64,000 bases of DNA from Branchiostoma floridae (Eukaryota; Chordata; Leptocardii; Amphioxiformes; Branchiostomatidae). The translations under genes were made by a program, and so were the position numbers. The notes beneath the pieces were generated by a model. It was not told the DNA's origin. It ran no database searches and was given only the letters and a program-made list of their open reading frames with translations. Positions 1 through 63,876 of this stretch are shown piece after piece. The stretch is from contig NC_049994.1 in the NCBI RefSeq assembly GCF_000003815.2, positions 18,643,876 to 18,707,875 on the forward strand. The letters are read 5' to 3'. Each line of letters starts with the position of its first letter. The stretch's first letter is position 1.

Positions 1-551
1 TCCAATCATTAACCACTTAAAAGAATCATGGCACTTTTGCAGTAATTATGCAAATTAGAAACTTATTTGCATAATTGGTATCAGTTAATGCCTTTATGCT
101 ACATAATGTATTTGAGTTAGAATTTGATAGAATATGGAGATCTCATTTAATTTGAGTCAAATCCATATGGAGATATTTGTAGAATTCTTTTTTTTTCCAT
201 CAGAATGATATACCCCGAGTCAGTGCTCAATTGTCCTTGCAAATCATATCATATCATATCACATCATCGGATAGGAGGCAGTTTGCCTGTGAAATCCGCT
301 TCTAACGATTACAATTAAAAACTAGTTTCCGTTTTATTTAACAATTAACAATTAAAAACGTGTCGATTTATTCAACAATTAACAATTAAAAGCTAGAATC
401 TAGAGTTTGTGAAAAGAGACTGTAATAACAATATAGAGTTCATGTTGGGCTAGGCGTATCTGCGACTTTTAACTTCTATGAAAAATGCAGTTTTGTGTGT
501 GTGTGTATGTGTGTATGTGTGTATGTGTGTATGTGTGTATGTGTGTTTGTG

Positions 552-586
<35 letters not shown>

Positions 587-870
587 GTGTTATATGTGTG
601 TGTGTGTGTGCGTGCGCGTGCGCATCTGTGTCTGTTTCTGGATATGTGTGGTCAGCATAATTTCAATGGACAATGATGATATTATTCGTTAACGTCTGCA
701 ATTGCTGTGACTGTCGCACAAGAATATCGGCATCGTTACGCGATGACTTTGGTGGCTTAATGTCACCAGTACTAGGAATATAATAAGTGGCCTTTTTACT
801 ATCATGGTAAGCTGTTTTGAGTGGAACAATTGTGGTTTGACCAGCTCTGTTTTCTGTCCTCCCCGGGCAG
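1..870. other. upstream noncoding sequence
   Basis: No coding exon is recognised before the first receptor exon at 871. There is a short ATCAT-type run near 241-265 and three tandem copies of an AACAATTAACAATTAAAA-like unit between about 300 and 395. The exon(s) with the signal peptide and start codon of the receptor gene must lie here unrecognised or, more likely, left of the window. Confidence 0.6.
495..630. repeat. (GT)n microsatellite
   Basis: An almost uninterrupted GT run with occasional A and TT variants. Open frames across it encode only Cys-Val runs and are artefacts of the repeat. Confidence 0.95.
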
Positions 871-3800
871 TGACACCTTCGACAACATCACCCACGACTG
901 TCGTGCCCAGCACCGAACCCACGACTGTCGTGCCCAGCACCGAACCCACGACTGTCATGCCCAGCACCGAACCCACGACTGTCGTGCCCAGCACCGAACC
1001 CACGACTGTCGTGCCCAGCATCAAACCCACGACTGTCCTGTCCAGCACCGAACCCACGACTGTCGTGCACAGCACCAAACCCACGACTGTCGTGCCCAGC
1101 ACCGAACCCACGACTGTCGTGCCCAGCACCAAACCCACGACTGTCGTGCCCAGCACCGAACCCACGACTGTCGTGCCCAGCACCGAACCCACGACTGTTG
1201 TATCCAGCACCAAACCCATGACTGTCGTGCCCAGCACTGAATCCGCAACTGTCGGGCCCAGTACCGAACCCACGACACCGGCCACCACACATTTTACTGG
1301 TAATCGCTGGAATCAATTATCACACATTGCTCTACCTTGTAATTAGAAAAACTTTTTTTACAGTTCAAAGATAGAATTATTCATATAAGCCAGAGAGATC
1401 AACATTAATGTACTGGCTAACTTTCAGGTTACTTAGATTACAAGAAATGAGTCAGAGAAAATATTTGTTGAAATGTCCGTTAGTGAGCATGACATGACAT
1501 GCTGCTTATACATGTATTTGTTCATGGAGTACAATGTTGTTTCAGAGTAAGTTTCTCCATATCAAGGGGAAACCATTACTCTAGAGTAGGTACATTGGTG
1601 GTAGAATTTGCGCTTGTAAACTGGCTTGATTAGAACATGTTTATTTGCAGGCTGTCCTCCTGGCTACTCTGCCCATGGGGGTTCGTGCTTCAAGGCGTAC
1701 AACCAAGGCAAAACCTACAACCAGGCCAGGAAGGTGTGTGCAGCGAACAGGGGGCTTCTGGCCATGCCGAAGGACGAAGACGCGGACGACTTCTTGAGGG
1801 ACCTGAAGGACACCGTGGATCCCAACTCCCCTTTCTGGTTTGGCATGAGCGATCAGAGTGGCGAGGGAAGGTGGGTGTGGGAAGATGGGACTCCGTACAA
1901 CACAGCCGCGAACTGGCCGAATGGGGGGTGGCAGCCGGGGGAACCCAACAATGAAGGGGAAGGAGAAGTCTGCGCCAACCACTTCCGTTCCGGCTGGAAC
2001 GACGCGCCCTGCTCGACTCCACACAACTTCATCTGTCAGCTGAATGATGGTGTGTCACGTGCTATGTTTAATAAGGCCTAGGGAAAAAATTTGTTTGGCA
2101 TTGGAAATATAAGTGTCCTCATGCTAGAAGAAAGGGTATGCCCCCCAGTAAGGGGCGGTATAACCCCAACGGTGCTGTAATACACCGTATGACTCTACAT
2201 CTACTTCCTCATGAATTTCAGTTTTACTTCAGTTTTAAGATATTCTCACCCCTTGATCATTGTAGGACTAACACAATATTTCTCCCACAGCAATCGACTG
2301 CCCCCTGGGGTACCACCAGTGCGGACACGGAAATGCCTGCATCCTGGCGTGGCAGCGGTGCGACGGGCGGACGGACTGTACAGACGGGAGTGACGAGGAA
2401 AATTGTGGTAAGTTAAAATGGTATTAGATCCGCACATGTACGCAAATGGTTATTTTCTGCAAGAAATCAAATTCAAAGGACCCGATGTTCATCATTTCCT
2501 TCCTGCTCTCGTTTGTTTTGAATCTTTCACCTCTCTCTAGTGGTTTTTAGAACTGTTCTGTCGTGGTAATTAAAACTGAAAAAAATTAAGAGCAGAAATA
2601 AAATAAAACATCAGAATGGTAAGAAAAAGTTGCTGTGGTAAAGTTAACTTGGTCCTTAGATCAACACATGTACTTAAAATGGTTATTTTCTGCGAGAAAT
2701 CCTATTCAAAGGACCCGATGTTCTAATCTCCAAGCAGATCCTACGGTGCCATAATATAGTATCAAAGCTGGCCAGGGAGTATAGCCGGCTAAGGAGGTCA
2801 AACCGGCCAAGAAGTTATGCTATGAATTACGCACAGTTGATCTGGTTGGAGATTACCGATGTTCATCATTTCCTTCCTGCTCTCGTTTGTTTTGTAACTT
2901 TTAACCTCTAGTGGCTTTTAGAATTGTTCTGTGGTTATTAAAATTGAAAAAAATTAAGAGTAGCTATCTAAAATAAAACATCAAAATGGTAAGAGATAGT
3001 TGCTGCAGGCAATGGTCAGTCGGTTTTGTGGGAACAATTCGTTCAATAAAAGATTATTTTTCTTGCACATTTTCTATAAGGATATCTTTGCATGTTTGGT
3101 AGATTTCCAAATCAATGATTACTTCCGTATTGTTACAAGTGCCCCCTGTTAATACTTATAATATTGGTATGTAGATGTTCAAAGCGATTTATTTTCTTTA
3201 TTGTTATAATTTTCAGTGTGCCTGCCAACTCCTGTGGATCTGAACCTCGGCGGCAGACTTGCGATGCTGCCGAATCAGCTGGAACAGACGACGTTTGAGG
3301 AGATACAGAATTCCTCTGTCGTGGAGCTGCTCGACAGTTCGACCAGCAACGCAGAGAACCAACATCCTGAGTTCCGGGAATTCGTATCTACGGTCATCTT
3401 CCCGCGATGTCTTGTCTCCGAAGAGAACAACACATCCTGCACTTTGTCTCCACATGGAGACAACACGGCCTCGTGCATGTGAGTAGCATGAAGCGTGTCA
3501 CTGGAAATTGGGGAAATGATTTTGATTCATCAATTTCAATTCATTCATTGATTCTTCTAAGTTGAATAGTTTCATACTCAAGATTGCAATGAAAATGCTT
3601 GCGCTGAATTGCATTGTATTTGTTTTTTTTTATCTATCTTAGATTTCTGTTATTGCTAGGGGTGGTGACAAGCCTCACAATTTCAGGGTGTTTCTGAACC
3701 TGCCTGTTTTGTAGTAATTGTTGGGGGTGGTGACAAGCCTCACAATGTAAGGGTGTCTCTGTTTTGTAGGACACAACTGCTGCCGTGCCGCTCGTGGTGT

Positions 3801-6800
3801 GAGGAAGTTCTCCACAAGGCTGATGACCGGACGAAGAACCGGTTCCCTACCTGTGACCTGTTTCCGTCACCACCACACGCCTGTTGGAACCCGGAGCCAG
3901 ACAAGAAGTACAACCAAAGTAAGGACTCACTGACATTGTTCGATATTGTCACTCAGTCCCTCAGATTTTACCATTTCCTGTATGATCACTTCGCAGAGCA
4001 GAAAGGAACTTTCACTTCACGACACACATTCAGGAATGCATCACTTTGAACATTTTTACAATCTATATATGTCCATTCACAGTTTGCTACTATGGCAACG
4101 GTATGAACTACCGCGGTACATGGAATGAAACTTCATCCGGGGCAGATTGTGTGGAGTGGTCCGCTGCGCAGGCTGGTTTCTACCCGACCAAGTACCCCTG
4201 GGCTAACCTGGAGAACAACTACTGCCGCAACCCGACTGGACTCGGGCAGCCATTTTGCATGACGGAAGATGGCAGCCAGGAGGACTGTGACGTCATTCAG
4301 TGCAGTAAGTTGGCTTGTCAAGATAGGAGACATCCTCTGAACCTTGTCAAGTTTCTTAGGCCTCCCCAATTCATTTCCTTGCTTGTCAGACTTGACTTTA
4401 AAACTTAAAAAGACGTTAAAACTTAAAGGCCTTTGAAGAAATTTAAAATCAGGCAACATTTAACCGAAAAATTGTGTACGATAGCCACAGACTTACCTCT
4501 CAGAGTCTTTTCCATACTTTTGGTTCCGTTTTTTTAAAATCGAGAAGTAATGTATTTAATATACTATTGCCTTTTCTGATGTATTACTATCACCCACAGA
4601 GCTCTTTCTCTGCGAGGACCTGGGTCCTCCAAACTACGGCCACAGAACCCCTCTCAAAAGGCACTACAACGTGGGGGATAGGGTCGCGTACACCTGCAAC
4701 GTGGGGTACTCACTAAAGCCCGGGGCTCCCACCGACGTGAGGTGCACTGATGGAGGCCTCTGGCAGTATGACAAGCCCAGCTGCTCAGGTAATTGTTGTA
4801 GATTTTTTGGTTGCATAGAATAGAAATTTAATGAATATAATATGGATAGTATCAGAAAACTGGTAACGGTAACAAAAAAACTTGTGTCTTGTTGTAAAAC
4901 AAAATATGGGTATACATGTGGATCATGATCATTCTGAAATTCTATCAGAAAACTGGTGAAAAATTAACTTGTAGTCTTGTTGTAAAACAAAATATGGGTA
5001 TAGATCATGATCATTCTGAAATTCTACAGTACCTTCCGTGGGTATAAGTTATCCTAACGATGGGCATGTACTTTTTCCTTCCTTAGTGGATTTCAAGGGT
5101 AGGCTGGAAAAGGAGATACTCGATGTGTACAACGCAAACCAGGCGCCTGGGGCTGAGACTGAACCTGACAGTAAGACTGAGACTGAAACTGACACTATGA
5201 CTGAAACTGACTCTAAGACTGACGCTATGACTGAAACTGAGACTGAGACTGCAACTGAATCTAAAAATGACACTTTGACTGAAACCGAGACCGAGACTGA
5301 ATCTAAAAATGACACTATGACTGAAACTGCAAAGCTCTCTCGGTCCGTCATCCGCTTCAATGGCTCTGTCGAACAGATCGTCGACTTGGTAAGTTTTAGC
5401 ACCCGTAACACACTTGAAATCTTTGTTGGTCTACAGCAAATAGATGACCCCAGGATGTAACAAAACGCAACTAATCACTGCGATGACTTTTATTACAGGA
5501 CGAGAAGAAGGAGCTGCTGATTACCTCTGTTGCCATCAACTTCGTAAGTTGACACAATTATGTAAACTACAGGCACTTCAGAAAATATTCCATTTATGTC
5601 GTTTTCTCATTAAAAGGTTTAAGGGCTATTCTATTCTTACACATCTGAAGATATATTTGTTTTGTTTCAGACCTGGCAGGACAGCCGGCTGAAGTGGGAG
5701 CCAGAGTACTACGGGAACACTAGGAATCTCACCTTGCCGGGCAGCAGCATCTGGACCCCGGCATTTACTCTGAAGAAGAAGTATGTAATCTCTTCTTAAA
5801 TGTTACCATGGCATCTAAATTGTCAATTGACATAAGCGGTAATCTTTTTATGTGAGTTCATCTGTGATTGTAAACGTTATGAAAGAAATTTTATACTTTA
5901 AGACCATGCACAGAAACAGAGCGTTTACCAACATGCTTTCGACCAGTCATCTGGTCCTTCTCTAGTTGCCAAGCACCTTTGACCCTTTGTTGACGTCACA
6001 CTTCCGGTCTGGATGTGTGACATAGGCTTTGGGTCATTTCACCATGATAAGGACTAGAGGACTGGTAAACGTTTCGTGTACGGTCTTAAAGTATTAAATT
6101 TCTTTCATTATCATTAATCTTGTTGTGTCAAATATTACACAAATTTGTCGCCGCCCAATATAATAACATGGACAGTATTTGTGAAGATTCTGGAAACAAT
6201 TCTTTCAATAGTTCCATCATGCTGGTAGATTAACTTGAAAGTTCATCTGTGTTCGTGGAAGTCCTTCTTAATAAAGTTAAACTGCAATTTCCAACACAAA
6301 AACATGACTTACCCAAATTTGTCAATTCCAAGACTAGAGTTGATCAGTTGAAAATTTGGGTAAGTCCCATTTTTGTTTTGGAAATTGCTGTTTAACTTTA
6401 TTAAGAATGCTGGTAGATTGTAGACAAATAATGGGCCTTTGAAGGCAGATCCCAAAAGAGATTCAGTCATGAATAAAATTAACAACCCAATTCGGGTAAC
6501 AGAGGTACTGAATTGCTCTACGAGTAGCATATTTTTTCCGACATGCAAAAAATTTATTTTACTAGGTAACAGAATCTTTCAACTCTTCTCATGCCAGATA
6601 TTGTATGATTCTATCTTCAGTGCAACACAACAAATTGAGCAGTTCAAATACCTAAATGCATCTTTCCATCCGTCTTAGGTACGAAGAAACAGTCTGTGGT
6701 TGTTGAAAAAAATCCATAATGACTAGTCAAAGAAAAATGACGACACTTTGTTGACTTCTCCACAGTGCTGACCCTTTGTACCGAGGCCTGCCAAAGGACG

Positions 6801-8813
6801 TACCGATCGTGATCAGCACTGATGGTACGGTAACATGGAGGGTGGAGACTCTGACCAGCACCATCTGTGATGCAAACCCGTTCTTCTTCCCTGCCGACAC
6901 CATGGAATGCCACATCTGTTTCTCTGTGTCCCCTGCAATTGAAAAAACCATCGGTAAGTTTTGCAGATATCTAATGTAATGAGATAAAGTGAATCAGTGT
7001 AGTATTAGTTCAACAGAGAACTCTTGGCTTATTTTAGATTATTAATATTGCGGAATGCTGAAATGGTGCGTGTACAGAAAGGATATCTATGCATGTTATC
7101 TGCTTTTTTATTTCTTAACCTCAAATAGTTTAACACGAGTGTAGCACGAAATCCAAGACTTAAGTATATGTGAATACCTTAAAGTAAAAGGTAAAGATCA
7201 ATGTTGAAAAAACGGCATCTTTACAAATGCTTTAAGTAAGCGTAAAGCAGAGTAAGGCGCGTTGATGAAGCCAGACATATATATTAAACGCATTGCGGTC
7301 ATCAGAGTCGAAGGGTGTTCATTAGTCTTTTTTTTCTTATGTGTCTTTCTCATAGAATAAAAAGAAAAAAAATGAATTCTTAGACTATGTGGTTAAAATC
7401 ATTTGTTGGACACAGAATGCGGAGGGGGGAGTTCCTGTGACGTCTGGTCTCCCCCACAAGACGAAGGCGAATGGATTCGGAAGGACAAGATCTTCGCTAA
7501 AGGCGGCAAGGAGTCGTGCTTCGCTGTTTATCTGCAAAGGGTCCCGCTGTTCCACATCGCCACTACTGTTACCCCCTGTGCCATCCTGGTGGTGCTGATG
7601 ATCATCACCTTCATCATGCCCATAGACAAGGGAGACCGGATCTCCTTCGGAGTGACCATCCAGCTCTCCATGGTCGTGTCTCTCGTGTTTGTCACGGACG
7701 TACTTCCTGTGAAAGGAGCGCTGCCATATTTCGGTGAGGACAAAAAAGTTTCCCTGTTCTTCTTTTGTCCACTGGTCCTTACCTCACTCAAACCATTTAA
7801 ACACAAAATAGCCTTTGTTTAGATTCATTTAGTATTCTGGAAACTAGAAAATTAGGCTCTTGAATCACAACTGGAATTTACCTGGCCAATCTTTCGGTAA
7901 CTCCTCAGCTACCTTTCTGAGTATCTGGGAAGAGTAAGGGACATGCTACTTAAGATGTGATTCAAGAACCCCATTTTCCAATGACCAATCCCATAAAGAT
8001 GTCACGGAACATTCCGGTAACTGTTTCCCACGGATGATGTTACAGCCTCTCTGATCGTCGTGTGCATGGCGCTGATGGGACTTTTCCTCCTCTTCACCTT
8101 GTACATCATCAGCATCCACGACAAGGAGGGCAGTCTGTCTCCGATGGCGAAGACTTTCTTTCTCTACTACATGGCAAAGTACGTACTACTTAAAACAATA
8201 TTTTGGGGTCACTCATAATACACATACCAAGCCCTCCACATCACGGCTTGTTTTCTTGGTTGCCTAGATTTGTTTACAGGAGGTTGCTTTGAGTTATAAA
8301 TTGCTTTTATTTTGTGCTCAGAACGAAGTAACCATCCTTCGGGGCAGTTAAACTTCTTTTGGATGCAATGCAATGCAATTGGCAGGTTTAATTCATATTT
8401 TATCGGCTAATACTTTTTGTTGATGTTTGTTCAGGTTCCTGCTGCTCGGAGACCTCACAGAGAAGGAGGCTGCGAGCGGGGATGGAGAGGCTGGCCTGAC
8501 CGGCGGGAAGCTGGCCTGGCCTGAGCGGGCCAACCGCGTGGTCCCTGCCGATGACGTGGTGGTGACCGACGTGGAGACCCCTGTTGCTGTCCCCGAGACA
8601 ACCCGCCAGCCCACCCGCCTGGAGGCAGCCCTGGAGGAACAGACCTCCTGCCTGCGTAATCTGATCCGCATGGCTGAGGAGCAGGTGATGAAGAACGAGC
8701 CGGAGGTATCCGATTACACCCTGCTGACCCAGGTGCTCGACAGACTGTGCCTTGTCCTGTACGTCATCAGCCTTGCCGTGGCCGTGCCCATGACCATGTA
8801 TCTGGGCAAGTAA
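871..8813 (+). CDS. chimeric Cys-loop ion channel with lectin, LDLa, Frizzled, Kringle and Sushi ectodomains (5' partial)
   Basis: Exons: 871-1299, 1651-2049, 2291-2407, 3217-3478, 3770-3918, 4083-4304, 4600-4788, 5087-5388, 5499-5543, 5671-5780, 6766-6953, 7416-7733, 8046-8178, 8435-8813; every junction is GT-AG and in phase, giving about 1,080 residues plus a missing N-terminus. In order: PTTVVPSTE repeats; a C-type lectin domain with EPN and WND motifs; an LDLa module (six Cys, DGSDE); a Frizzled-like CRD ([10 protein letters not shown]) over two exons; a six-Cys Kringle; a four-Cys Sushi domain; then a channel subunit with its N-terminal helix, an acidic Thr/Glu repeat, a WEPEYYG loop, a Cys-loop (Cys-x13-Cys containing FFFPAD), M1-M4 and a roughly 100-residue M3-M4 loop. 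M2 starts GDRISFG and has Asp at -1', Leu at 9' and Asp at 20', which resembles cation channels. No vicinal Cys pair is present in loop C and no Trp at the usual loop-B site, so acetylcholine binding is doubtful. The product should be a plasma-membrane receptor. Confidence 0.88.
873..1285 (+). repeat. coding 27-bp VNTR, nine-residue mucin-like unit
   Basis: About 13-14 tandem copies of a 27-bp unit encode PTTVVPSTE and close variants within receptor exon 871-1299. The unit length is a multiple of three, so copy number can change without breaking the frame. Thr, Ser and Pro richness suggests an O-glycosylated stalk. Antisense and other-frame ORFs here are shadows. Confidence 0.9.
2415..2965. 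repeat. direct duplication inside receptor intron
   Basis: About 150 bp from near 2417 (containing GGACCCGATGTTC and later AAAAAATTAAGAGCAG-like sequence) recurs from about 2650. The second copy is split by the small element at 2724-2855. The first copy therefore serves as the empty site. Confidence 0.8.
2724..2855. mobile_element. 132-bp fold-back MITE, 9-bp target duplication
   Basis: The ends are TAATCTCCAAGCAGATC and its near-perfect inverse. CCGATGTTC flanks both sides (2715-2723 and 2856-2864) and occurs once in the uninterrupted upstream copy. A 9-bp duplication is typical of Mutator-like elements, but no transposase is present. Confidence 0.85.
3656..3769 (+). repeat. duplicated splice-acceptor region before receptor exon 5
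   Basis: The tract GGTGGTGACAAGCCTCACAA through TTTTGTAG occurs twice in tandem, the second copy ending at the acceptor used at 3770. It is a two-copy, intron-side example of the exon-edge duplication seen in other genes here. Confidence 0.75.
5130..5330 (+). repeat. coding Thr/Glu/Asp repeat between channel helix and first beta strand
   Basis: An ACTGA-based microsatellite-like tract encodes ETETDT, TETDSK and TESKND units. It lies inside exon 5087-5388, between the helix [11 protein letters not shown] and the strand [16 protein letters not shown], so it would form a long acidic insert at the top of the channel domain. I know of no such insert in standard nicotinic subunits. Confidence 0.85.
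5879..6110. mobile_element. fold-back element in receptor intron
   Basis: GAAAGAAATTTTATACTTTA near the left end is matched by an inverted copy at about 6083-6109. The interior contains a CATGATAAGGACTAGAGGAC tract. It has no coding capacity. Confidence 0.65.
6271..6405. repeat. inverted repeat with arms of about 50 bp
   Basis: The arm starting TAAAGTTAAACTGCAATTTC is followed 40-odd bases later by its imperfect inverse ending GGAAATTGCTGTTTAACTTT. It could form a stem-loop in the pre-mRNA of the receptor intron. It is probably a small fold-back transposon. Confidence 0.8.
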
Positions 8814-8817
8814 AGGG

Positions 8818-10360
8818 AGTGTTCCAGTTTTCTCAGCATAGTCTGAGCATAGGGGCCCCTATGCCGTAATTTTGACCCCCTATGCTGAGATTTGAACCCC
8901 CTATGCTGCGATTTTGACCCCCCCCATGCTGTCATTTGGACCCCTATACTGTGATTTGGACCGCCTTTGCTTTGATTTAGACCCAAATGCTGTGATTTTG
9001 CCCCCACATGCTTTGATTTGGACACCCTATGCTGTGATTTGGATCCTTATGTTGTGATTTGGACCTCTATGCTGCCATTTTCCCCCATATGCTATGATTT
9101 GGACCCCCGATGCTGCCATTTGCCCCATAGGCTATGACTTGGACCCCCTATGCTGCCATTTGGACCCCTATGCTGCCATTTGGACCCCCTATGCTGCCAT
9201 TTGGACCCCTATGCTGCCATTTGGACCCCCTATGCTGCCATATGGACCCCCTATGCTGTCATTTGGACCCCCTATGCTGCCATTTGGACCCCCAATGCTG
9301 CCATTTGGACCCCTATGCTGCCATTTTGCCCCCATATCCTATGATTTGGACCCCCAATGCTGCCATTTGGACCCCCTATGCTGCCATTTTGCCCCCATAT
9401 GCTACGATTTGGACCCCCTATGCTGCCATTTGGACCCCCTATGCTGTCATTTGGACCCCCTATGCTGCCATTTGGACCCCCAATGCTGCCATTTGGACCC
9501 CTATGCTGCCATTTTGCCCCCATAGTCTATGACTTGGACCCCCTGTGCTGCCTTTGCTGTGATTTAGACCCAAATGCTGTGATCTGGACCCCTGTGCTGT
9601 GATTTGGACCCTCTATGCTGCGAGTTAGACCCCCATGCTGTACTTTAGACCCCCTAATGCTGTGATTATATATGCCCCCATATCACATGTGCTGTGACTT
9701 GGATCCCCTATGCTGTGATTTACTCTCGTAGCTTTGATTTGGACAACCGATGCTGTTATTTGGACCTCCTATGCTGTAATTTAGGCCCCTCTGCTCTGAT
9801 TTGGACCAGCATGCTGTATTTTTGGCCCATATGCAGTGATTTAGAAACCATGCTCTGATTTTGCCCCCCTCAGTATGCGGTAATTTCCCCCCCCCCCTCC
9901 CTATGCTATGATTTCAGCCCCTATGCTGTGATTTGGACCCCCAGTGCTGTGATTTGGGGCCCCTATGCTGTAATTTAGACCCCTGTGCTGTGATTTTGGC
10001 CTCCTATTCTGGTTTTCGAACCCATATGGGTGTTTCTTTCTGGGGAGAACCCCTGGATCTTTCATAGTTACTTGATCGATGGTTGGCTTTATTTTAAAAG
10101 AAGAATTTAACAGATCTAGAGGGAAAACTTTACAAAATTTGTCCACCCAAATGAAAGAAATAGAGTCTTGTTGATTATGAATTGTAAACAGTTCTGAGAG
10201 GATGTGGCCCCGACTGTGACAATTGTCTTCGGCACTTTGCACGTGGCTTGTGCCGCGCAAAACTTGGCCCCTCCCCCCTCCATATGCTGTAATTTTGCCC
10301 CCTATGATTTCGGCTCTATGCTGTGATTTAGACCCCTATGCTGTGAGAACCCCGGTGTTC
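8818..10360. repeat. minisatellite of about 21 bp (TATGCTGCCATTTGGACCCC), possible element of hAT-like type
   Basis: Dozens of tandem or interrupted copies fill this 1.5-kb stretch just after the receptor stop codon. The most regular part is 9090-9540. The left edge (AGTGTTCCAGTTTTCTCAGC) resembles the termini of the element at 40832-42075, and the inverse of the right edge (GAACACCGGGGTTCTCACAG) looks related, so this may be an element with an expanded subterminal array. No clear target duplication was found. ORFs across it are repeat artefacts. About 200 bp of unique sequence lies near 10020-10260. Confidence 0.8.
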
Positions 10361-46113: not shown

Positions 46114-49100
46114 ATGGGTGAGTCTTCCCCGTTCCGTAAGCGGCTGATCCGCTGGTTAGAGGACAATCGCGGTTTCATCATCCTGGTCTTCTGTCTACCT
46201 GCCAGCTTCTTATTCGACACCTGTCTGCAGCTCAGGTGAGCACTTTCATTTCAATTTCAGCTGTGCACTAATGTAGTACCAGATAGAAGGGAAATCAAAA
46301 GTGGCAAGGTAAATCTGAAGATGGCGGGTTTTAGTCCCTAGCAGACATCCATGTTTTGCCTACAGGAAAGACTCTTTACACCTACCTACTGATTATAGCT
46401 GTGGTTGGGGATGTCCTTTAAGATGGATCAAAAAGCTATGATCTTGATGAAGAGAGCCCGATAAAGAACTCACCAAACATGTAAGAATATCGAATCTTAC
46501 AGTCAGCTTTAACGCAACCTGTACTTACTGTACAAATAATCCATTAAACTTGTGTTTTCAGTAGAAATTATTTGTCAGTATTAGCAACAAGAAGACATGA
46601 AGATCCAATTTTATTGCATTGTCTCCCTGCAAAAGCCCCACCAACATAGCTATAGGTTACATACATGCGTTATAGCAGTGAGAAGTAACACTCCAGTCTG
46701 AAGCTCTGAGAAAGCTCTGATAGGCACACTTCAGAAACATATATATTAAGCAGGTGAGAGCCACTGCTGGTTTGTTATATCAAAGATTTTCTAACTTTTC
46801 TTCCTGTCCTCTCGCCACAGGAACTGGTTCCGTCGGACATTCCTCTCTGCTCCAGAGAAGCATGATGAACGCGTACGCGACATCCAGCGGCGAATCCGGC
46901 GGTGGGGCGACCAGCCGAAGGACAAGAGGAAACCCATGTGCACGTCACGCCCAAACTGGCTCAGTCTCTCTACAACGTTCTTCCAGAAGGTAAGATTGTT
47001 GCAGTTTTTGTGTTTGTTTGTCTTGGTGTGTGTCATTTAAATATTGCAGGGTCACAGGGTATCAGATGCTGGAAGGAAGTGTATATGTGCACATCATGCC
47101 CAAACTGGCTCAGTCTCTACAATGTTTATCCAGAAGGTAAGATTGTTGTTAGGCCAAAGTCGTGTGTGAGAGCATGTCTAACCCTCACCTGATGGGAAAC
47201 AAAAGATGATAAACCCAATAGTGAGTACCATGTAGTGCATCATTATGAATCTGGTGGTGGAATGACCAGTTAAAGGACAAGAGGAAACCCATGTGTACAT
47301 CGCGTACAAACTGGCTCAGTCTGTCTACAGCGTTCTTCCAGAAGGTAAGATTGTAGTACTAGTAAGGACAGAACTGTGTGAAAGCATGTCAAACCCTTGT
47401 TGAGCCTGATAGTGAGTGAGTGTATCACTATGAATCCGGCGGTAGGGCGACCAACCGAAGGATAAGAGGAAACCCATGTGTACATCACGCCCAAACTGGC
47501 TCAGTCTGTCTACTACATTCTTCCAGAAGGTACAGTTATTGTTACCTGCTTCGAGATAAACAGACTCATTTACAGTATTTTGTGTTTGTTTGCTTGTTGT
47601 GCAAACAGTAATCCTATTGCAATGATTGGTGACAAAGTTTGCAAGTTTTTATTTGAGTCTTTACATTTTTAATTCAGTCCCACAGATCTGTCTGAGACTT
47701 GCCCCAAATCAGGGGTGCGTACATTAATTGAGGTCCGTACTTTATTCGAGAAAATACAGTAGTCTTACAGGTTGGATAAGTTCATTCAGAAGCTCAGGAA
47801 TATGTTGACTGTGTCCTCTCTGCTATCAGCCACTACCAGCTGTTCCTGTGTTGCCATGGCAATGGCACATGGCCTCTCCATGCCTGTAGCGATGTGTTTC
47901 TGGAATTCTCCTGTCTTGTCAAACATTTCTACTCGACGGTTCAACCAGTCTGCCACGATGATGTTACCTGCCCTGTCTGTACAGATACCAAGGGGAAACT
48001 TTAGCTGACCTTCAGCTCTTCCATGACCTCCAAACCTGAGCAGAAACTGTCCATCCTCGTTGTACACAAAGACACAGTTATTTAGACAGTCTGACACAAG
48101 AATGTTCCCTTCCCTGTCCACAGTGATGTACCATGGGTACTTCATCCCCTGCTGCTGACCCACAGTTCTCACAAGTGTCCCATCTGGCCGGAACAACAAA
48201 ACTTCACCATATGGGTTGGATGAGTCTTTGGTTTGTGTGATGAGGATGTGGTTCCTCCTGGTATCCACGGCAATGCCCCTGCCCCACCCTGTTGCCTGCA
48301 GGTCAAACTTCCTCAGAACTGTGCCCTGTTTGTTGTACTGCACAGCAAACCCAACAAAGTCTGTATCCATCCCCCATAGGTCCCCCACCACCCATAGGTT
48401 CCCCTCCCCGTCCATGGCCACATCTTCTGGGTATATCTTCTGTTCACCTGACATGACTGTTGGGAACTGTCGGACAAACTTTCCCTGTAGGGTGAAGACT
48501 TGGATTCTCTGGTTCCCCCTGTCTGCTACAAATATTTCCCCTTCATCTGACACTGTCACACCAAATGGATCCCTGAACTGTCCTGTTCCTGAACCCTCTC
48601 CACCAAATGTTACCCTTTGTGGCTGGCGGCAGTTCACACACTTGAAGTCCACTCCCATCCTTACAATGTCCTGTAGACAGTCCTGACAAACACTGTGTCC
48701 ACATGGCAGCACCTTGGGCCCAGTGAACAGCTCCAGGCAGATGCTGCAGGTCACACCTTCCTTGAAATGTGTCCCCAAACTTGATGCGGCCGCCATGATT
48801 TTTTCTGCTGATGTGCTTTGACCTCAAGTCAAAGTCTCACTTGGGCCATGTTTTGCTTTGGGTAGGACTAAAAACAATAAAAGCTGAGGCTACCCAAATA
48901 AATCCCATTTGAAAAACAAACAGGGTATTAATTTTTTTAAACCCTTTGAGCTCATAATTTGAACTATTCTTGTTTTTCTTCACTTTTCATAAGAAGCTGT
49001 TAAAGCTGCATCCTGGAATATTTTTTTATTGATTTATTTGTTTGTTTGTTTGTTTGTTTGTTCTAGGACCAGTGTGAGAAGATCCCAGTAGACCTGTACA

Positions 49101-58523: not shown

Positions 58524-58623
58524 NNNNNNNNNNNNNNNNNNNNNNNNNNNNNNNNNNNNNNNNNNNNNNNNNNNNNNNNNNNNNNNNNNNNNNNNNNNNN
58601 NNNNNNNNNNNNNNNNNNNNNNN
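58524..58623. other. assembly gap of 100 N
   Basis: Exactly 100 N, a usual placeholder for a gap of unknown size. The final DHCR24 exon(s) and the 5' end of the zinc-finger array are both missing at this point, so real sequence is absent or the join is wrong. Confidence 0.97.
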
Positions 58624-60830
<2,207 letters not shown>

Positions 60831-61185: not shown

Positions 61186-62958
61186 AAAAAAAACATAATT
61201 AAACTAAGCAAGTTATATATACAAAATGAAGCAAGATGTAAACAATACTAAAGGAAAATGGAAAATGTGTATGGCAAAAATTGTTATGCGTGCGTGTCCT
61301 AGCCCCTATCATCAGCAATTTGATGATGGCCACCTAAACACGAAGAACGAAGAAGATCCCAGTGATGAAAGGAGAAATTTTACACGTACAAGAATTTAAA
61401 AATGTGGAAGAATAAATCTGTTTGTGGAGTGTTTATAGTGATGAAATTTTGGGTGTTAGAAATTATAGCTAGGATTTTGGAATCTATGGAATATGAATAT
61501 AATTGACTTCCACGAAGTAGTAAAGAAATCTGGGCATTTGATAGTATTTATACCTAGGCAATAGAACACTGAGGAGACAGGAGAAGTTCTATGAATCTAT
61601 CGATAGGTTCTGTACGGCGCATGAACTGCGGTGTGAGACCGCGAAGGTCAGCGGCCGGTCGCTCTACTGAGAAAACATGGCCGCTGTGCGGAACTATTGT
61701 GTACATTATATTAATTCTTTTCATTTGCCCCACAAATAAGCAAAAATAGATTCAAGTCTATTGACGAGTTTTATTCTATTTATTTTTTATTGTGTTGACA
61801 TTAAGTGTATTATCAGGAGCATCTGGGGAGCAAATTGACCTTTGCCCTACACCACTTCACCCCTGACCCCTACGCGTAAGAAGAAAGGGGAAAGCTGCCC
61901 GACCGGTTTAGTGACGAGGAATCTATCATAGGAAGCAGGTAAGACTTACAAACGTGCTTTCAAGTATTCTGATACAGATTGTAAGAGTTAGGGGTCATTT
62001 CTGTGGGACAGTAATCTAGTAAGTATTTAAATATCATAATTTATAGGCATTTTCTTGATGTAAATACGGCAGAAATAAAGGGGGAGGGGGCGAAGCCAAA
62101 CATACGTGAGACCCTCGCCACCAAGTCAGTTTGTTTTCTTCCATATGAAACCGTTTGACCTTTTCTTGGTGTACATTCGAGTTTTGTGCATTGTAATAAT
62201 GATGGAAAACTATGATAGGGACTTAGATCTGAGCCACTATACACCAAAGGAGACATTTTAATCACTCGATACAAGCGATCCATTTCAGACAGCAACTTTT
62301 CCATGAAGAAAGTAGTCTGCAATTCAAACACGATGAAAAGGGAGCAGACAACCTGGGTATATGATGTAGCCAACTGTCTTTTTCAGTGATAAATTCATGA
62401 TGAGGATTTGTATGAGGATTTATATGTATGGATCTCAACGCAGTTTTCTGCATATTGTCTCAATTGTCAACTACAAGATTTTTTGTTTACAAAAATTGAT
62501 AACATCGTATATTCCCAATTTACTTATCTGTAGTCTTAAAAAAGTTATGTTCACGTTTGTTTTTGTTTGGTTGAACCTTTGTTTATTCATGAAAGCTCAG
62601 ATCGACCTGCAGGCCGCTTTTCATTGCGGTCATGAGGGAAGAGGCAAAGTATGTACAGTTTATAGAGGTCAAGGGTCACAAGTGCGCTGGATATAACAGC
62701 TGTCAATTTGTTTGTTTGTTTGTTTGTTTGTGCCTTTATTCGTACCTGATCATTAGAAATGGTGCAGAAATCGAAATTGTTGTCGTATCTTCTAGAATTT
62801 TTTTTTAAACCTGAAAATCAGGTGATCTTACAGAATTTTAAACGGGTAAAATATGTGGACAGAATAATGTATTATATATCTACGCCCGTTTCCATTTTTT
62901 TAAAGAAAGAAAGCAAGAAAAAAATCATCATCTAAACAATATTTTTACTGTTTTAGAG
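61185..62958. other. intergenic, upstream of the intact zinc-finger gene
   Basis: No coding exon recognised. A (TTTG)n run lies at about 62708-62731. A TTTTAG acceptor directly before 62957 implies a noncoding first exon somewhere in this region. Confidence 0.55.
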
Positions 62959-63876
62959 ATGGCGGAGTTCACATGTGTGCCTCCTGCTAAAGAGCTTAAC
63001 GTGGAACAAGCTGTGAACATCAAAGAGGAGCCGACAGGAGACACTGGATGGCAGCAGGATGAACAGGAAACGTACAACGAGGACCAGGAAACCTACGACT
63101 ACTTTGGCTTAAGCGAACCAACTGGACATCATTGGAACGAGACTTACAACAGTTGTGAGCAGTCAGCAGACACGAGATGGCAGCAGGAAACGTGTGACGT
63201 GAACTTTCCCCAACCTGACAACACATCAACCTCACAGGTACAGGAGAGCAGAGACAATAAGGGAAGGCATCTGGTTAAAAACACCGATGAGAAACCCTAC
63301 ATGTGTGTGGAGTGCGGGTACAGTACAGCCAATAAGGCTCACCTATCCCGACATAGGAGAACTCATACAGGGGAAAAACCCTACAAGTGCGACCAGTGTG
63401 ACTATTCTGCTGCAGATAAAACTACGTTTGACAGACATCTAGCAAAGCACAGTGGCGAGAAACGCTACATATGTGAGGAGTGCGGGTACAAAACAGCTCG
63501 AAAGTCTCACTTATCCCAACATGTGAGAACCCATACAGGAGAAAGACCCTACAAGTGTGACCAGTGTAACTTTTCAGCGTCAAAGAAGTGTAATTTAAAT
63601 GAACATCTATCAAAAAAGCATTCTGGCAAGAAACCCTACCTGTGTAGGGAGTGCGGATACAAGACAGCTTATAAGTCGGCCCTATCCCAACACATGCGAA
63701 AACATACCGGAGAAAAACCCTACAAGTGTGATCAGTGTGACTATGCTGCTGCACAGAAGTCCAACTTAGACCAACATCTTGTAAAACACTTCGGTGAGAA
63801 GAAACCCAACATGTGTAGAGTACAGAAGGACTTGTCACAACACATCACAACCCATATAGAGCAAGGTGAGACGTGA
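62959..63876 (+). CDS. C2H2 zinc-finger protein, six fingers plus a degenerate seventh
   Basis: A 305-residue ORF starting MAEFTCVPPAKELNVEQ two bases after a TTTTAG acceptor. Residues 1-108 are acidic, without a known domain, but include IKEEP (21-25), a SUMO-acceptor consensus. Fingers follow from about residue 112, alternating MCVECGYSTA and [10 protein letters not shown] types with TGEKPY linkers. A seventh unit (MCRVQKDLSQH) has lost its second Cys. The protein is presumably a nuclear DNA-binding factor. It is a sequence relative of the decayed array upstream and is probably the surviving member of a local duplication. Confidence 0.92.
   Translation: MAEFTCVPPAKELNVEQAVNIKEEPTGDTGWQQDEQETYNEDQETYDYFGLSEPTGHHWNETYNSCEQSADTRWQQETCDVNFPQPDNTSTSQVQESRDNKGRHLVKNTDEKPYMCVECGYSTANKAHLSRHRRTHTGEKPYKCDQCDYSAADKTTFDRHLAKHSGEKRYICEECGYKTARKSHLSQHVRTHTGERPYKCDQCNFSASKKCNLNEHLSKKHSGKKPYLCRECGYKTAYKSALSQHMRKHTGEKPYKCDQCDYAAAQKSNLDQHLVKHFGEKKPNMCRVQKDLSQHITTHIEQGET

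Follow-up and report, generated by a model that had tools for sequence, protein, structure and literature searches.

A Branchiostoma floridae gene that very probably joins lectin, LDLa, Frizzled-type, Kringle and Sushi modules to a Cys-loop cation-channel subunit, and its relatives across the genome

The window analysed here was a stretch of 64,000 nucleotides from Branchiostoma floridae (NCBI RefSeq assembly GCF_000003815.2, contig NC_049994.1; C16:18643876-18707875 in the coordinates used below). Between positions 871 and 8813 its forward strand carried the exons of what is very probably a single fused gene, in which a series of extracellular modules was followed by a subunit of a Cys-loop channel. 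An earlier note, made from the letters of the window, had described fourteen exons joining in phase from the modules into the channel, and this description was confirmed by splice-site enumeration and by Pfam. All 14 exons were present at their places and joined in frame from 871 to the stop codon at 8813, giving a protein of 1079 amino acids.

The gene and its modules

Exon boundaries were re-derived by enumerating the GT and AG sites at most 4 bases away from each boundary that had been read by eye. Three open chains led to the stop at 8813, and the one that kept all cysteines of the LDL-receptor class A (LDLa) module was chosen as the model (Table 1). After splicing, it encoded a stalk, a C-type lectin domain, the LDLa module, a Frizzled-like domain, a Kringle, a Sushi domain and a complete Cys-loop cation-channel subunit, in this order.

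Table 1. Exons of the gene and candidate exons upstream of the window; negative positions count upstream from window base 1
Feature	Position	Strand	Content	Phase (in, out)
Candidate signal-peptide exon	-26676..-26601		strong donor; one of two candidates in the scan	out 1
LDL-receptor class B propeller exon	-5639..-5388		upstream of the window, in-phase joins	
LDL-receptor class B propeller exon	-3344..-3179		upstream of the window, in-phase joins	
LDL-receptor class B propeller exon	-1942..-1824		upstream of the window, in-phase joins	
LDL-receptor class B propeller exon	-1555..-1387		upstream of the window, in-phase joins	
LDL-receptor class B propeller exon	-905..-805		upstream of the window, in-phase joins	
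Exon 1 of the window (not of the gene)	871..1299	+	Thr/Pro-rich mucin-like stalk	1, 1
Exon 2	1651..2049	+	C-type lectin domain with EPN and WND motifs	1, 1
Exon 3	2291..2407	+	LDL-receptor class A module	1, 1
Exon 4	3217..3478	+	degenerate Frizzled-type cysteine-rich domain, first half	1, 2
Exon 5	3770..3918	+	Frizzled-type domain, second half	2, 1
Exon 6	4083..4304	+	Kringle	1, 1
Exon 7	4600..4788	+	Sushi	1, 1
Exon 8, first channel exon	5087..5388	+	N-terminal helix, acidic Thr/Glu repeat insert, strand 1	1, 0
Exon 9 (45 bases)	5499..5543	+	core of the ligand-binding domain	
Exon 10 (110 bases)	5671..5780	+	loop D Trp kept, loop A Tyr lost	
Exon 11	6766..6953	+	Cys-loop with FPxD motif and 13 residues between its cysteines; Trp of loop B lost	
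Exon 12	7416..7733	+	shortened loop C, pre-M1 Arg, M1, M2, M2-M3 linker	
Exon 13	8046..8178	+	M3	
Exon 14	8435..8813	+	intracellular loop, helix before M4, M4, stop	

The six introns separating the modules from each other and from the channel (those before exons 2, 3, 4, 6, 7 and 8) were all in phase 1. Thus, the lectin, LDLa, Kringle and Sushi exons were symmetric 1-1 units, and the two Frizzled exons formed one such unit together. Exons 9 and 10 had the same lengths as exons 3 and 4 of vertebrate nicotinic genes (45 and 110 bases), in which intron 1 is in phase 1. Several repeats accompanied the exons. Namely, the stalk contained 14.3 copies of a 27-base unit, and an acidic Thr/Glu-rich repeat at 5153-5329, between the N-terminal helix and strand 1, was variable in two of the three paralogs described below (L065 and L066) and absent in the other (L067). 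A 21-base minisatellite with 33.9 copies (8856-9556) started 43 bases past the stop codon, with variants continuing to approximately 10.0 kb (8856-10011).

The channel half matched both Pfam families of Cys-loop subunits above the curated cut-off (Neur_chan_LBD, E-value 1.1e-25; Neur_chan_memb, 1.3e-14). Moreover, it had a pair of cysteines 13 residues apart, an FPxD motif, an Arg before M1 and four transmembrane segments, so the proposal of a complete subunit with N-terminal helix, Cys-loop and M1-M4 was borne out. Its closest matches in PDB were nicotinic alpha4 and Torpedo-type nicotinic beta, followed by 5-HT3A, and its identity to alpha4 was 24-26% over the aligned stretch. Cation-selective members of this superfamily lack the Pro-Ala insertion at the intracellular end of M2 and have acidic residues at -1' and 20'. 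The window gene read GDRIS...VTD in this region, and the aligned paralogs had D or E at 20', as in the cation-selective branch. This cation-type pore was conserved, with M2 nearly invariant across 29 locus entries representing 25 distinct places (four places were entered twice).

The agonist site told a different story in the alignment of the window gene, L065 and L067 to alpha4. The Trp of loop D was retained. The Tyr of loop A was replaced by Lys, Met-adjacent Lys or Arg, the Trp of loop B was replaced as well, and loop C was approximately 10 residues shorter and had no CysCys pair. Because these residues of the acetylcholine pocket, by which a nicotinic alpha-type subunit is recognised, were lost, acetylcholine would be an unlikely agonist at the subunit's own principal face.

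In the head, four module types exceeded the curated Pfam cut-offs: Lectin_C (E-values from 6.7e-19 to 6.8e-21), Kringle (1.2e-15 to 1.4e-17), Ldl_recept_a (8.8e-08 to 1.5e-10) and Sushi (2.4e-07 to 8.1e-10). There was no tyrosine kinase domain of the kind found in MuSK and ROR among the Pfam matches of the 1079-residue protein. The nearest solved relatives of the lectin were langerin and DC-SIGN-type lectins. With its EPN and WND motifs, which we take to mark the calcium-dependent mannose type, it would be classified by sequence as a mannose-type C-type lectin. The EPN motif was also found in L066 and L067, and L065 had EPD.

These matches upheld four of the modules named in the earlier note; the Frizzled copy of the window proved to be degenerate, and its identity was recognised through its relatives. 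Neither Pfam nor a single-sequence PDB search matched the region in the window gene, and a profile comparison with four Frizzled domains (probability 25%, E-value 7.6e-4) was suggestive only. One of the four family members tested matched PF01392. This was L067, whose Frizzled region was 60% identical to that of the window gene, and the match covered nearly the whole model (E-value 4.8e-4) at 21.1 bits, below the cut-off of 32.1. Firmer support for the identity came from a genome search with PF01392, in which the equivalent exon of a divergent paralog (C11:19752616) reached 44.7 bits, above the cut-off. This paralog had all five cysteines of the first half and five others in the second-half exon, i.e., ten over the two exons. 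The window domain kept six of the ten and had two extra cysteines; the four missing ones presumably correspond to two whole pairs in the disulfide pattern of Fz8. The module is therefore most plausibly a genuine Frizzled domain; in the branch of the window gene, four of its ten cysteines disappeared and two new ones arose. A Pfam zf-C3Hc3H match in three of four sequences (below cut-off where a score was shown) was put down to a coincidental alignment of cysteines. Exons for Frizzled domains were densely clustered at 2.02-2.07, 11.82-11.83 and 12.86-12.88 Mb of C3, at 10.19-10.23 Mb of C4 and on C290.

The gene did not start at 871. The first exon of the window requires a preceding exon, and propeller exons with in-phase joins were found in the approximately 40 kb examined upstream (Table 1). 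When spliced, they encoded a propeller of the YWTD type (Ldl_recept_b, E-value 1.4e-18) with PDB relatives including LRP2, LRP4 and LRP6. The exon nearest to the window was the sole single-exon candidate, under the thresholds used, that bridged phase 2 to phase 1 before 871, and it reads like the last propeller blade; the bridging search covered single exons, and chains of two or more small exons are possible. The propeller and the Thr-rich stalk were duplicated as a block (-17.9 to -10.3 kb versus -5.7 to +1.3 kb), with aligned pieces 84-94% identical and a second copy of the stalk exon at -10620..-10300. The first exon of the upstream propeller copy was visible as an open frame and had been missed by the splice-site scan. 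Related propeller exons without a nearby listed channel occurred on C9 (0.5-2.5 and 23.4-25.3 Mb), C11 (15.9 Mb), C12 (19.4-19.7 Mb) and C16 (18.85 Mb), and it is possible that they represent the donor family of the propeller head.

A family of fused genes in the genome

The 513-Mb genome contained 52 places, including that of the window, with an exon for M1-M3 that was 42-96% identical to the window channel. They were chosen from 100 matches, and 87 of 3537 first-look candidates were scored, so this number is a lower bound. Within 32 kb upstream on the same strand, a Frizzled-type exon was found at 46 of the 52 places, a Kringle at 48, a Sushi at 42 and all three at 41. At each of these 41 places the order was the same: first half of Frizzled, second half of Frizzled, Kringle, Sushi, channel. 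Conversely, the Frizzled exons had 91 matches in the genome (from 104 candidates, all scored), and in 89 cases a listed channel followed at a distance of up to 32 kb, compared with 0.15 expected, which ruled out chance co-location. As a control, none of 30 other Cys-loop exon places (the best 30 matches, some of them from one gene) had such module exons. The search with the Pfam Frizzled model added three channel places, bringing those with a Frizzled exon to 49 of 52.

The lectin was present at 16 or more of the 52 places and the propeller at 11 or more. The heads either differed between copies or differed in how well they were found. In a divergent copy that lacked the Sushi exon by search, this exon was present when the sequence was read, and therefore the module counts are lower bounds. 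The limit of 32 kb was chosen after the lists had been inspected, and the module exons of C11:103883 and C3:9265562 were 23-29 kb away. For Kringle and Sushi, 107 of 155 matches were entered and weaker ones were excluded; 14 of the 107 were not upstream of a listed channel. The lectin check covered 27 of 150 matches (the best 25 and two picked near channels) and the propeller check 24 of 144. Among the 22 of 151 PF01392 matches that were checked, a listed channel lay within 32 kb downstream for nine (one of them, C230:281841, ambiguous at 30 kb) and did not for 13. Elsewhere in the genome, many propeller, lectin and Frizzled matches belonged to other genes.

A Frizzled exon followed by a Kringle without a listed channel was observed at C10:11256060-11260663, C16:11378172 and C2:13258126, 14724262 and 27941535; at the C10 locus, a channel transmembrane exon came after them. 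More divergent members of the family may thus exist beyond our list.

Three paralogs (L065, L066 and L067) were followed exon by exon. Exons 2-7 and 9-14 were open in all three with the phases of the window gene; the phases had been imposed in the search, so the result shows that such open exons exist and is not an independent finding of the phases. Exon 8 was open in L065 and L066 and was read by hand with a GC donor in L067, and there was no usable model of exon 1 in L065, L066 or L067. The ratio of nonsynonymous to synonymous substitutions (dN/dS) was 0.31-0.35 over the modules in five of six pairs and 0.29-0.43 over the channel exons in all six. Judging by these ratios, both halves of the gene are under constraint. 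A pseudogene reading was rejected for the window gene on account of its fourteen open exons and the dN/dS pattern; the rejection does not extend to every copy. Between the window gene and L065, dS was 0.041 over the module exons and 0.133 over the channel exons, as if their heads had been exchanged by gene conversion.

Comparison with known receptors

Nicotinic acetylcholine and 5-HT3 receptors resembled the channel half in the Cys-loop of 13 residues, FPxD, the Arg before M1, the four transmembrane segments and the cation-type ends of M2. In contrast to them, the window gene lacked the Tyr of loop A, the Trp of loop B and the CysCys of loop C, and it had six module types and a stalk in front. 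The head shared its module types with LRP4 (propeller and LDLa), with MuSK and ROR (Frizzled and in some cases Kringle), with LEV-10 (LDLa) and with LEV-9 (Sushi). However, all these are separate single-pass or secreted proteins without a channel. The LRP proteins also shared the YWTD propeller found upstream of the window; they have a single transmembrane segment and an endocytic tail, whereas the gene described here ended in a channel with four such segments.

Several other systems combined some of these properties. The chemotactile receptors of octopus and squid derive from nicotinic receptors by an expansion specific to that lineage, do not bind acetylcholine and respond to hydrophobic ligands (PMC11526382; this and the other papers cited are represented here by parts of their text). 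The expansion and the loss of the acetylcholine site are alike, but extra extracellular modules are not mentioned in the parts of that paper considered. The nicotinic receptors of molluscs and annelids also show large expansions, a few of them with dynamin or GAIN domains at the annotation level (PMC6896357). They differ in that they are described as tending towards intronless tandem copies, and Kringle, lectin and LDL appear nowhere as words in the body of that paper. Bacterial pentameric ligand-gated ion channels (pLGICs) can be fused at the N-terminus to sensor domains of the PBP-I or MCP-N/Cache type, for which a preliminary capture of the ligand has been proposed (PMC549065). As in the window gene, these domains precede the channel core, but they are unrelated to the modules described here. 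According to the same paper, the members known in 2004 had a stereotyped architecture, and the bacterial ones were more diverse than those of animals. In the part of PMC4795631 that treats it, the association of pLGICs with other domains is evidenced only at the genome level.

In amphioxus itself (B. floridae), Adhesion G-protein-coupled receptors with Kringle, Lectin C and LDLa heads have been described (PMC2246102), i.e., similar modules on a different class of receptor with seven helices rather than a channel. Lancelets are reported to show extreme exon shuffling with a bias to 1-1 exons (PMC4284660). The nicotinic genes of amphioxus are treated in PMC6354393, and such heads are not mentioned in the parts of it that were examined. 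A description of a Cys-loop channel fused to these modules was not found in the portions of open-licence PMC literature that were searched.

Possible role of the heads and alternative explanations

We favour, with roughly even chances in our judgement, an expanded family of Cys-loop cation channels with exon-shuffled heads that capture a glycan or another surface ligand and turn contact into cation entry. A nicotinic/5-HT3-like gene would have received the modules in its phase-1 intron, which follows the signal-peptide exon and precedes the first channel exon. The fused gene would then have been copied across the genome to approximately 50 channel places. In a pentamer, the pore would be crowned by five heads, whose calcium-dependent EPN/WND-type lectin and LRP-like propeller may capture a glycan or surface ligand of the matrix, mucus, a microbe or a neighbouring cell. 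The capture might concentrate a second ligand or tilt the extracellular domain, and contact would become cation entry. A more tentative proposal is that lancelets possess a whole repertoire of ionotropic surface-recognition receptors, in which the varying heads of approximately 50 channels recognise glycans or matrix and the pore opens on contact. So many channel places, with heads that vary, would suit a recognition repertoire better than a single synaptic anchor.

A number of observations weighed against the favoured explanation. The Kringle lacked what we take to be the acidic lysine-binding pair of plasminogen kringles, and the Frizzled domain had lost four cysteines; some modules may therefore be mere spacers. 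In the window-L065 pair, dN/dS of the modules was 0.95, at a dS of only 0.041. At C16:19016022 (L037/L059), an otherwise close copy had a frame break just before M1, which could be a sign of a pseudogene, a polymorphism or an assembly error. Three of the 52 channel places had no Frizzled exon in either search. The other two of the 91 Frizzled matches belonged to C5:4743573-4749092, where lectin, Frizzled, Kringle and Sushi matches stood in order with no listed channel exon. Finally, the signal-peptide exon, 26.7 kb away, was a candidate from sequence only.

The C5 locus, with its head exons and no listed channel, also speaks for another explanation, namely that the gene model joins two neighbours, a lectin/Kringle/Sushi protein and a separate channel gene, or is an artefact in some other way. 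The earlier note had named transcripts starting with a signal-peptide exon just before 5087 as one observation that would point to two genes. A scan of 1-5086 for signal-peptide-like exons with a phase-1 donor gave two matches, of which one lay at 3115-3166 and the other overlapped the lectin exon; there was none in intron 7, which separates Sushi from the channel. The length of this intron was 298 bases in the window gene and 205, 192 and 98 bases in the three paralogs, which leaves hardly any space for another promoter and signal exon. Together with the fitting exon phases and the same order on the same strand at 41 of 52 channel places, this makes two separate genes hardly tenable, and the exons very probably form a single fused gene.

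The protein was also considered as an accessory subunit that would assemble with ordinary nicotinic partners and rely on them for the agonist-binding face, so that the head would only modulate or target the mixed channel. A retained loop D with a lost principal face is the pattern of non-alpha subunits, and here the complementary-face Trp of loop D was kept while the principal-face residues were gone. However, the nearly invariant M2 and the large family could equally support homomers, and we regard this possibility as unlikely. Nor do we consider it probable that the gene encodes a self-clustering or anchored receptor, which would carry LRP4-like (propeller, LDLa, Ser/Thr stalk) and MuSK/ROR-like (Frizzled, Kringle) modules in cis and need no separate organisers. 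The module types do match those of neuromuscular organisers (PMC6966886), the propeller has LRP2, LRP4 and LRP6 among its relatives, and in Caenorhabditis elegans clustering by LEV-9 has been ascribed mainly to its Sushi (CCP) domains (PMC9083331). On the other hand, the LDLa of LEV-10 is dispensable for clustering according to the same source, and in response to agrin MuSK clusters receptors even when its Frizzled domain is missing, with a change in its binding of Rapsyn (PMC6966886). Moreover, the acetylcholine pocket is absent, and approximately 50 varying copies would be many for one anchor. Thus, of the two ideas originally put forward for the head, a sensing ectodomain for glycans or matrix fits the EPN/WND motifs, the LDLa and the LRP-like propeller, whereas the clustering of acetylcholine receptors was weakened by the changes in loops A, B and C.

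A family with six further module types and a stalk on a Cys-loop core would mean that ordinary exon shuffling in phase 1 can extend the stereotyped layout of these channels. If the channel is gated or placed by its heads, this would represent a new way of turning surface recognition directly into ion flow. The wider repertoire, if it exists, would be a channel-based counterpart of pattern-recognition or chemotactile receptors.

Outside this gene, the window contained an open frame with RING and NHL-repeat matches on the reverse strand (47786-48823), which was TRIM-like. Two C2H2 zinc-finger arrays were located on the forward strand at 59245-60261 and 62842-63876, the second of which was identified by reading. 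There was also a gap of N letters at 58524-58623.

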